Positions 12,332-13,620 of a stretch of DNA of 64,000 nucleotides are shown in pieces; position 1 is the first letter of the stretch; each line of letters starts with the position of its first letter. Source of the stretch: Rhodocytophaga rosea (GTDB lineage: Bacteria; Bacteroidota; Bacteroidia; Cytophagales; 172606-1); NCBI RefSeq assembly GCF_010119975.1, contig NZ_CP048222.1:868001-932000 (forward strand), in the 5' to 3' direction. The notes below the pieces were generated by a model. The model searched no databases. It was not told where the DNA came from and saw only the letters and a program-made list of their open reading frames with translations. The translations under genes were made by a program, and so were the position numbers.

Positions 12332-13165
12332 ATGAGAAAAGAGTACGAGCAGGAGGGTCAGGAAAATACGCAGCAAGAAAAAAGATGTTTGGTTATTATG
12401 CCTGTTGCCGATAGTACTCCTTATGAAAGCGGACATTTTAAGCGGGTATATGAATATATTATTAAGCCTGCTTGTGCAAAGGCTGGTTTAATGGCTTATA
12501 AGCTTGAAGATGTGCAACGTACTAATCATATTGTAATTAACAAGTTGCGGGAAGTTACATCAGCTGAGATCGCTATTTGTGACTTAAGCTCTAAAAATTC
12601 CGAAGTACTATATAAGCTGGGCATCAGGCAGGGACTTGATCTACCAACATTATTAATAAAAGACACACTGACCGCAAAAATATTTGATATCCGTGGTTTG
12701 CTCGATGTAGAATATGACGAAACCTTGAGAGTAGACCGGGTAAACAAAACTATAGAAGAAATTGCTGAAACCCTTTTGTCGATGTATGAGTCTAAAGGTA
12801 TACGGACTAATTCTATTATATCTTTATTAGGGATACAAAAGGCTGAAATTAAAAATAAAGTGGATTTATCTTCTGAAGCTAATATTCTTCTGGAAGCAAT
12901 TAGTGGAGTAAAAGACCAGATATTAAAAGGAAATCATCCTCCACAAACATCAGATGCAGAACCAGCAGCAGAACCCAAACAAAAGGAACTGAACTGGGTA
13001 GATAGTGAGGGTAATAAATTCCAGGTGGGTGATGTAGTTACCCATCCTAAATTTGGGTTAGGAATACTGGTTGATATTATTCCGGATGGTTTGCTTCGGG
13101 TTAAGTTTAATACCATCGGATTAAAAGTATTACGTGGTGAGGTTGAAAAATTAGTGTTGTTGTAA
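12332..13165 (+). CDS. TIR/deoxyribosyltransferase-like domain fused to a UvrD-type Tudor-like tail
   Basis: A 277-residue cytoplasmic protein, unusual in build. Residues 18-150 show the Rossmann-like pattern of TIR-like/nucleoside 2-deoxyribosyltransferase-like proteins: CLVIMPV, FKRVYEYIIKPACAKAG, then AEIAICDLSSKNSEVLYKLGIRQGL. The usual 'NpNVfYELG' glutamate is replaced by lysine (YKLG), though Glu91 lies close by. A polar linker (about 150-225) leads to residues 227-277, VGDVVTHPKFGLGILVDI and LLRVKF, resembling the Tudor-like C-terminus of UvrD/PcrA helicases. That module binds RNA polymerase in PcrA. I infer a regulatory or defence-type NAD/nucleotide-acting protein, but neither activity is proven. 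The long AT-rich leader and small gene behind it are the only context. Confidence 0.6.
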   Translation: MRKEYEQEGQENTQQEKRCLVIMPVADSTPYESGHFKRVYEYIIKPACAKAGLMAYKLEDVQRTNHIVINKLREVTSAEIAICDLSSKNSEVLYKLGIRQGLDLPTLLIKDTLTAKIFDIRGLLDVEYDETLRVDRVNKTIEEIAETLLSMYESKGIRTNSIISLLGIQKAEIKNKVDLSSEANILLEAISGVKDQILKGNHPPQTSDAEPAAEPKQKELNWVDSEGNKFQVGDVVTHPKFGLGILVDIIPDGLLRVKFNTIGLKVLRGEVEKLVLL

Positions 13166-13323: not shown

Positions 13324-13620
13324 ATGAAAGACCTGAATGAATTCAAAAGCTTTAATACTGCATTAGTTAACTACTTTATGGCAGAGCAAAAAATGCTCTA
13401 CCATAGCCAGGTTAGCCAGTTAGCCAATGCTAAAATGATCAAATCAGCTAAACAATTGCATACAACCATATCCCAGATCAAGGAAATTCCAGATCATTTG
13501 AAGGAAGCTTTGCAAACAGCGATTGACAAACGGGATATAAAGAATATTATGGCCGTATCTGTACAAGTGCAGGAAATTGTTAACCTATTAAGTTCTAAAT
13601 ATTTTCCCCGGTCCAAGTAA
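13324..13620 (+). CDS. Small helical protein of unknown function
   Basis: 98 residues, almost wholly predicted alpha-helix, with no signal peptide or membrane segment. It begins MKDLNEFKSFNTALVNYF and has a heptad-like Leu/Ile pattern through ISQIKEIPDHLKEALQTAI. I do not recognise the family. It lies 158 bases after the TIR-like/Tudor gene on the same strand and is closed by a strong terminator, so the two could be co-transcribed. A protein-protein partner role would be a guess. Confidence 0.6.
   Translation: MKDLNEFKSFNTALVNYFMAEQKMLYHSQVSQLANAKMIKSAKQLHTTISQIKEIPDHLKEALQTAIDKRDIKNIMAVSVQVQEIVNLLSSKYFPRSK

Follow-up and report, generated by a model that had tools for sequence, protein, structure and literature searches.

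When analyzing a 64,000-nucleotide window of the Rhodocytophaga rosea genome (contig NZ_CP048222.1; "the window" always means this whole stretch), we noticed a gene encoding a protein of new domain combination, in which a putative nucleotide N-glycosidase/TIR-like domain is joined to a PcrA-type Tudor tail (Table 1). Each module is known by itself; what appears new is their combination, together with the fact that the N-terminal domain has lost its catalytic Glu more than once. In our best reading, a phage-derived N-glycosidase-like protein may have become a non-cleaving nucleotide-binding module, with RNA polymerase or another partner of PcrA as its docking site.

Table 1. Features of the gene and its neighbor, with positions in the window
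Feature	Position	Strand	Basis
Whole ORF, 277 aa: DNPH1/MilB/NDT/TIR-like domain plus PcrA-type Tudor tail (predicted)	12332..13165	+	Translation, AlphaFold2 model
N-terminal nucleotide N-glycosidase/TIR-like domain (predicted), residues 17-156	12380..12799	+	Structure matches
Codon of K95, site of the catalytic Glu in YELG	12614..12616	+	Alignments of relatives
Helices and low-confidence linker, residues 157-225	12800..13006	+	AlphaFold2 pLDDT; 54% identity to congener
PcrA/UvrD-type Tudor domain (predicted), residues 226-277	13007..13162	+	Structure match, hhalign
H238..F241, equivalent to PcrA H681..W684; putative RNA polymerase contact	13043..13054	+	Alignment to 5dma; mutants in PMC5397179
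K265-V-L267, equivalent to PcrA K712-R-L714; putative RNA polymerase contact	13124..13132	+	Alignment to PcrA Tudors; numbering from PMC5397179
98-aa neighbor ORF, next to the gene in both congeners; no functional tie shown	13324..13620	+	Synteny

Gene and domain architecture

The open reading frame is a real gene. Its Tudor-tailed product is not a chance find, since there are 19 Tudor-tailed chromosomal homologs, the window copy included, and purifying selection acts on each of the two domains. The 8.98-Mb genome holds one copy. The congener, the sole other genome of the genus compared, has a syntenic ortholog of 65% identity, and the two share the order sensor kinase, LytTR regulator, ferredoxin reductase, ferredoxin, the gene, and the 98-aa ORF. 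A scan of genome contigs gave short matches only, nearly all against the tail region. In g48, a second genus within the order, the gene is present in 15 of 63 genomes, and a full-length copy is absent from all six further genomes of the family examined; this patchy distribution marks the gene as dispensable, which weighs against the role favored below.

The window copy has as neighbors genes for a LytTR sensor/regulator, ferredoxin reductase, ferredoxin, a histidine kinase, and dnaA. A defense island around it was ruled out, the neighbors being housekeeping genes, and a plasmid origin of the region was rejected for want of any DNA match among plasmids. The 98-aa neighbor was considered as a conserved operon partner and dismissed, as it adjoins the gene in the two congeners only; it has no Pfam family above the cutoff. 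Further distant copies of this small protein are found elsewhere in the genomes of both congeners.

We modeled the window protein with AlphaFold2 from 12 homologs (mean pLDDT of 74.7). Values were mostly 78 to 97 in the blocks of the N-terminal domain, with one loop block at 56, and 73 to 88 in the Tudor part, and fell below 50 at residues 174 to 176 and 199 to 217 of the linker, which appear disordered. The N-terminal domain is predicted to have the α/β fold of the DNPH1/MilB/nucleoside deoxyribosyltransferase (NDT)/TIR superfamily. VIA matched the domain (residues 15 to 157) to human DNPH1 (8rps; Z of 12.6, 2.5 Å across 123 residues), the CMP N-glycosidase MilB (4ohr; Z of 12.6), a plant TIR (4c6t; Z of 11.7), and an NDT (8qc0; Z of 11.5), which bears out the likeness to TIR and deoxyribosyltransferase domains proposed in the preliminary description. 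KRAS and similar α/β proteins in the Foldseek rows were set aside as common-fold noise; the top list of VIA lacks them and starts with DNPH1 and MilB. The sequence of the domain scores below Pfam cutoffs, and no match to DUF4062 was reported for the window protein. When one phage relative was searched as a single sequence against the PDB, the six matches were all to DNPH1, all weak (E values of 1.4 to 2.4), and placed its YELG over the YELG of DNPH1. As the catalytic Glu is absent, the window protein was not placed in an enzyme family.

The tail is predicted to have the five-strand Tudor fold of the UvrD C-terminal domain (CTD). Residues 226 to 277 of the model superpose on the UvrD/PcrA CTD of 7egt with a TMt of 0.94 and a root mean square deviation of 0.9 Å (TMt of 0.82 for 7egs). 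In the PDB, the five closest sequences to the tail by itself are without exception C termini of PcrA/UvrD or related helicases, each with an E value between 0.1 and 1.3, and a profile-profile comparison by hhalign with PcrA Tudors, mostly from the same bacterial family, gave 97.7% and an E value of 2e-12. The identity of the tail is strong by virtue of the consistency of the five matches and the profile match, not of the single E values. As a single sequence, the tail reaches Pfam PF21196 below the cutoff (E value of 0.0075; 16.5 to 19.5 bits against a gathering threshold of 23.9). The structural and profile matches agree with the earlier comparison of the tail to the RNA-polymerase-binding Tudor of UvrD/PcrA.

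That comparison also extends to single residues. H681, W684, K712, and L714 of PcrA were mutated by Sanders et al. to test the RNA-polymerase-binding surface (PMC5397179). In our alignment their counterparts in the window protein are H238, F241, K265, and L267, so that all four are kept, the W-to-F change being conservative. Across the 19 Tudor-tailed homologs, the His is found in 19, the Lys in 18 (one row ends before it), and the Leu in 16, and position 241 varies between F, Y, and H, with His in several copies of the second genus. The published target is a helicase-interaction motif (HIM), [VIL]DxxTGE[VIL][VILT] (PMC8318588). The RpoB of R. rosea has a single TGE, which lies inside VDEDTGEVV at residue 254 and fits the HIM. 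These sequence features give good support to the predicted docking of the tail at the site where PcrA binds RNA polymerase, and they provide residue-level backing for the link to transcription suggested at the outset; there are Tudor domains whose partners are other proteins or DNA, which counts against RNA polymerase as a sure target.

A side observation concerns PcrA itself. At a run of G, the reading frame shifts by one between the helicase ORF of the R. rosea PcrA and its Tudor tail (G000:C1:6227852-6227980), and in seven other genomes of the family it is fused to the helicase; the split may be an assembly error or real.

Loss of the catalytic glutamate and the setting of relatives

The Glu of the YELG site is catalytic in TIR and NDT enzymes. 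It is replaced by K95 in the window protein, as the preliminary description had read it, and by Gln in the congener, with most other conserved residues kept; in the second genus the site is G, A, I, V, or S. We built a tree of the N-terminal domain from 53 rows with the Glu column left out. All Tudor-tailed rows form one clade (support 97/87), which also holds the phage protein L137 and is known from 20 sequences. The Glu is replaced in 17 of these 20 rows and in none of the 33 outside, and its loss maps to two changes on the tree, both inside the Tudor-tailed clade. Beyond the two Glu-less lineages it is kept in 36 of 36 rows, many of them from phages or prophages, namely, L015, L071, and L137 within the clade and all 33 outside.

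Among Glu-retaining relatives, 39 columns are conserved, of which Y31, G34, H35, D84, S86, R99, and Y128 are fixed in all Glu-less rows; Glu95 is absent from every one of these rows, and G97 and F102 have also changed in the second genus. Across the Tudor set, Y31, H35, D84, S86, R99, Y128, D129, R133, and D135 are invariant. The candidate for the catalytic Asp of DNPH1 (D80), in a DNPH1 alignment that is one residue off, is column 70, which is Asn here and varies among Glu-retaining relatives; Asn70 would thus be at most a candidate for a second catalytic loss. The conserved residues other than Glu may hold the fold together and not a ligand site.

In a close pair of Glu-less proteins, dN/dS was 0.06 for the N-terminal domain and 0.05 for the Tudor domain. 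Between the congener and the window copy, a pair whose synonymous sites are saturated, the Tudor domain is 92% identical and the N-terminal domain 63%. By these values, the Glu-less proteins are maintained and not decaying. The Glu is the nucleophile of DNPH1, and the DNPH1 E104Q mutant binds hmdUMP without cleaving it (PMC10603095). From the replacement of the Glu we infer binding without cutting.

Relatives of the N-terminal domain belong to phrog_3634 (E value of 2.7e-16), a family of no known function found in phages and prophages. Those from Dorea, Klebsiella, and E. coli phages and from IMG/VR contigs all keep the Glu, and most have other tails. One on a Pantoea plasmid (L158:4992-5867), also with the Glu, belongs to a P2-like element, in which it is flanked by the genes for CI repressor and integrase, a frequent place for cargo genes in such phages. 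The Glu-retaining L137, on a phage contig (L137:5971-6822), is encoded between capsid/head and terminase genes. Its tail contains GDKVLHVDFG and was modeled at lower confidence; no UvrD chain was among the best 50 Foldseek matches listed for this model, and we therefore term the tail Tudor-like by its residues and predicted strands only. The two Glu-retaining chromosomal Tudor homologs are both near candidate defense genes. L015 follows PDC-S71 (608 aa) and an unknown 245-aa protein with close, operon-like spacing (L094:5205-8711); downstream of L071 are genes for an unknown 427-aa protein and an FRG-domain protein (PDC-S15) as well as a VapBC-like pair (L095:7866-12134). PDC-S71 was rejected as a constant partner: of the 395 genomes in the phylum sample, one contains it.

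The Glu-less copies of the second genus have ordinary chromosomal surroundings, with neighbors shared only among close pairs. With PADLOC, the window protein reached an E value of 0.025 only, and relatives matched a TIR effector model weakly (E values of 2.6e-5 to 2.6e-9). The link to defense raised in the preliminary description is thus indicated for Glu-retaining relatives only, which the neighborhood survey placed in mobile or defense-type settings (phage and prophage, PDC-S71, PDC-S15); it did not carry over to the window copy, the congener, and the other Glu-less copies, which sit amid ordinary chromosomal genes and lack a constant partner.

Proposed role at RNA polymerase and alternatives

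In the reading that we favor, tentatively and at somewhat below an even chance, the window protein would be a pseudo-enzyme docked on the transcription machinery, with the Tudor domain on the HIM of the RNA polymerase β subunit and the Glu-less N-terminal domain holding a ligand and so tuning PcrA access. The Tudor tail would bind the HIM through the surface used by PcrA/UvrD helicases and perhaps also bind other HIM proteins such as UvrB. The N-terminal domain would have its origin in nucleotide N-glycosidase/TIR-like proteins that are mobile and often carried by phages and, with its nucleophilic Glu lost, would hold a nucleotide (or NAD-like) ligand uncut, much as the preliminary description had suggested for a nucleotide. 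A bound ligand may change the occupancy of the PcrA site by the protein, so that the recruitment of PcrA, the removal of R-loops, or transcription-coupled repair would respond to nucleotide state. That the protein binds RNA polymerase, takes up a ligand, and competes with PcrA, and which way the effect would go, are steps that we infer. Free PcrA CTD displaces PcrA from RNA polymerase and R-loops rise (PMC8318588), so competition with PcrA would be expected from a Tudor protein that is abundant enough, and its extent could be set by a ligand. The full form of the proposal, a nucleotide-sensing transcription factor whose phage-derived domain lost its Glu twice independently after Tudor fusion and which gates PcrA/UvrD access to RNA polymerase β, linking nucleotide state to both R-loop removal and transcription-coupled repair, we consider unlikely as a whole.

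The tail might also work alone, as a factor that competes with or regulates the recruitment of PcrA to RNA polymerase, with the N-terminal domain serving as a ligand-free dimerization or spacing module. By the identities given above, constraint is highest in the Tudor domain, and free PcrA CTD is sufficient for the displacement just described; against this, the nine invariant residues of the N-terminal domain and its dN/dS in the close pair show more constraint than a spacer needs, and we give this explanation the same limited weight as the full proposal.

Two further alternatives appear still less probable. The Tudor domain could aim at another HIM partner, UvrB, or at nucleic acid instead of RNA polymerase, with a role in nucleotide excision repair: PcrA Tudor binds UvrB via the same motif (PMC8318588) and the UvrD CTD weakly binds DNA (PMC7585439), but the HIM in the organism's own RpoB is perfect and no repair gene adjoins the window gene, so we hold this to be rather improbable. 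Marginally lower still we place an anti-phage protein that remains an active enzyme (nucleotide N-glycosidase or NADase), is brought to RNA polymerase by the Tudor domain, and uses another residue in place of the Glu. The prophage position of relatives between CI and integrase, the candidate defense genes PDC-S71 and PDC-S15 beside others, and the weak PADLOC matches would all suit such an enzyme. However, the residue lost is the DNPH1 nucleophile, the replacements (K, Q, G, A, I, V, and S) include no carboxylate, and the defense-type neighborhoods belong to Glu-retaining relatives only.

If the favored reading, a ligand-holding protein docked at the PcrA site, is true, a nucleotide-binding immune-type fold and a helicase dock on RNA polymerase would be linked in one small protein, and the PcrA docking site would seem to have users besides the helicase. 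The proteins also form a natural series, in which phage and mobile forms retain the Glu and resident forms have lost it twice, and which makes a step from mobile enzyme to host regulator testable.

Comparison with known systems

The preliminary description knew of no system with this pair of domains, and our search of the open literature likewise found none combining a DNPH1/TIR-type domain with a PcrA-type Tudor, an absence that is not proof. The tail shares the predicted fold of the PcrA/UvrD C-terminal Tudor (PF21196; 5DMA, 7EGS, 7EGT), with no long alignment gap and the four RNA-polymerase-binding residues kept (W as F). Unlike PcrA/UvrD, the window protein has no helicase, and its Tudor is joined to a nucleotide N-glycosidase/TIR-like domain. 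The N-terminal domain resembles DNPH1, MilB, nucleoside 2-deoxyribosyltransferase, and TIR in predicted fold (Z of 11 to 12.6), with its YELG site aligned to that of DNPH1, and the natural Gln of the congener resembles the DNPH1 E104Q mutant. It differs from these enzymes in the Lys at the position of the catalytic Glu and in the extra helices, linker, and Tudor tail. The phrog_3634 protein and related phage proteins share the N-terminal domain and are similar in length, but those sampled all keep the Glu and, except L137, have other tails. In the DUF4062 TIR-like NADases (Swarozyc; PMC13174449), a remote TIR/NDT-like domain is paired with various accessory domains; these retain the catalytic Glu, whereas the window protein does not. 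A precedent for the tail on a non-helicase is the Y-family DNA polymerase DinX (PMC6511836), which also has a PcrA-type Tudor tail with similar conserved RNA-polymerase-binding residues, while its enzyme part is a DNA polymerase.
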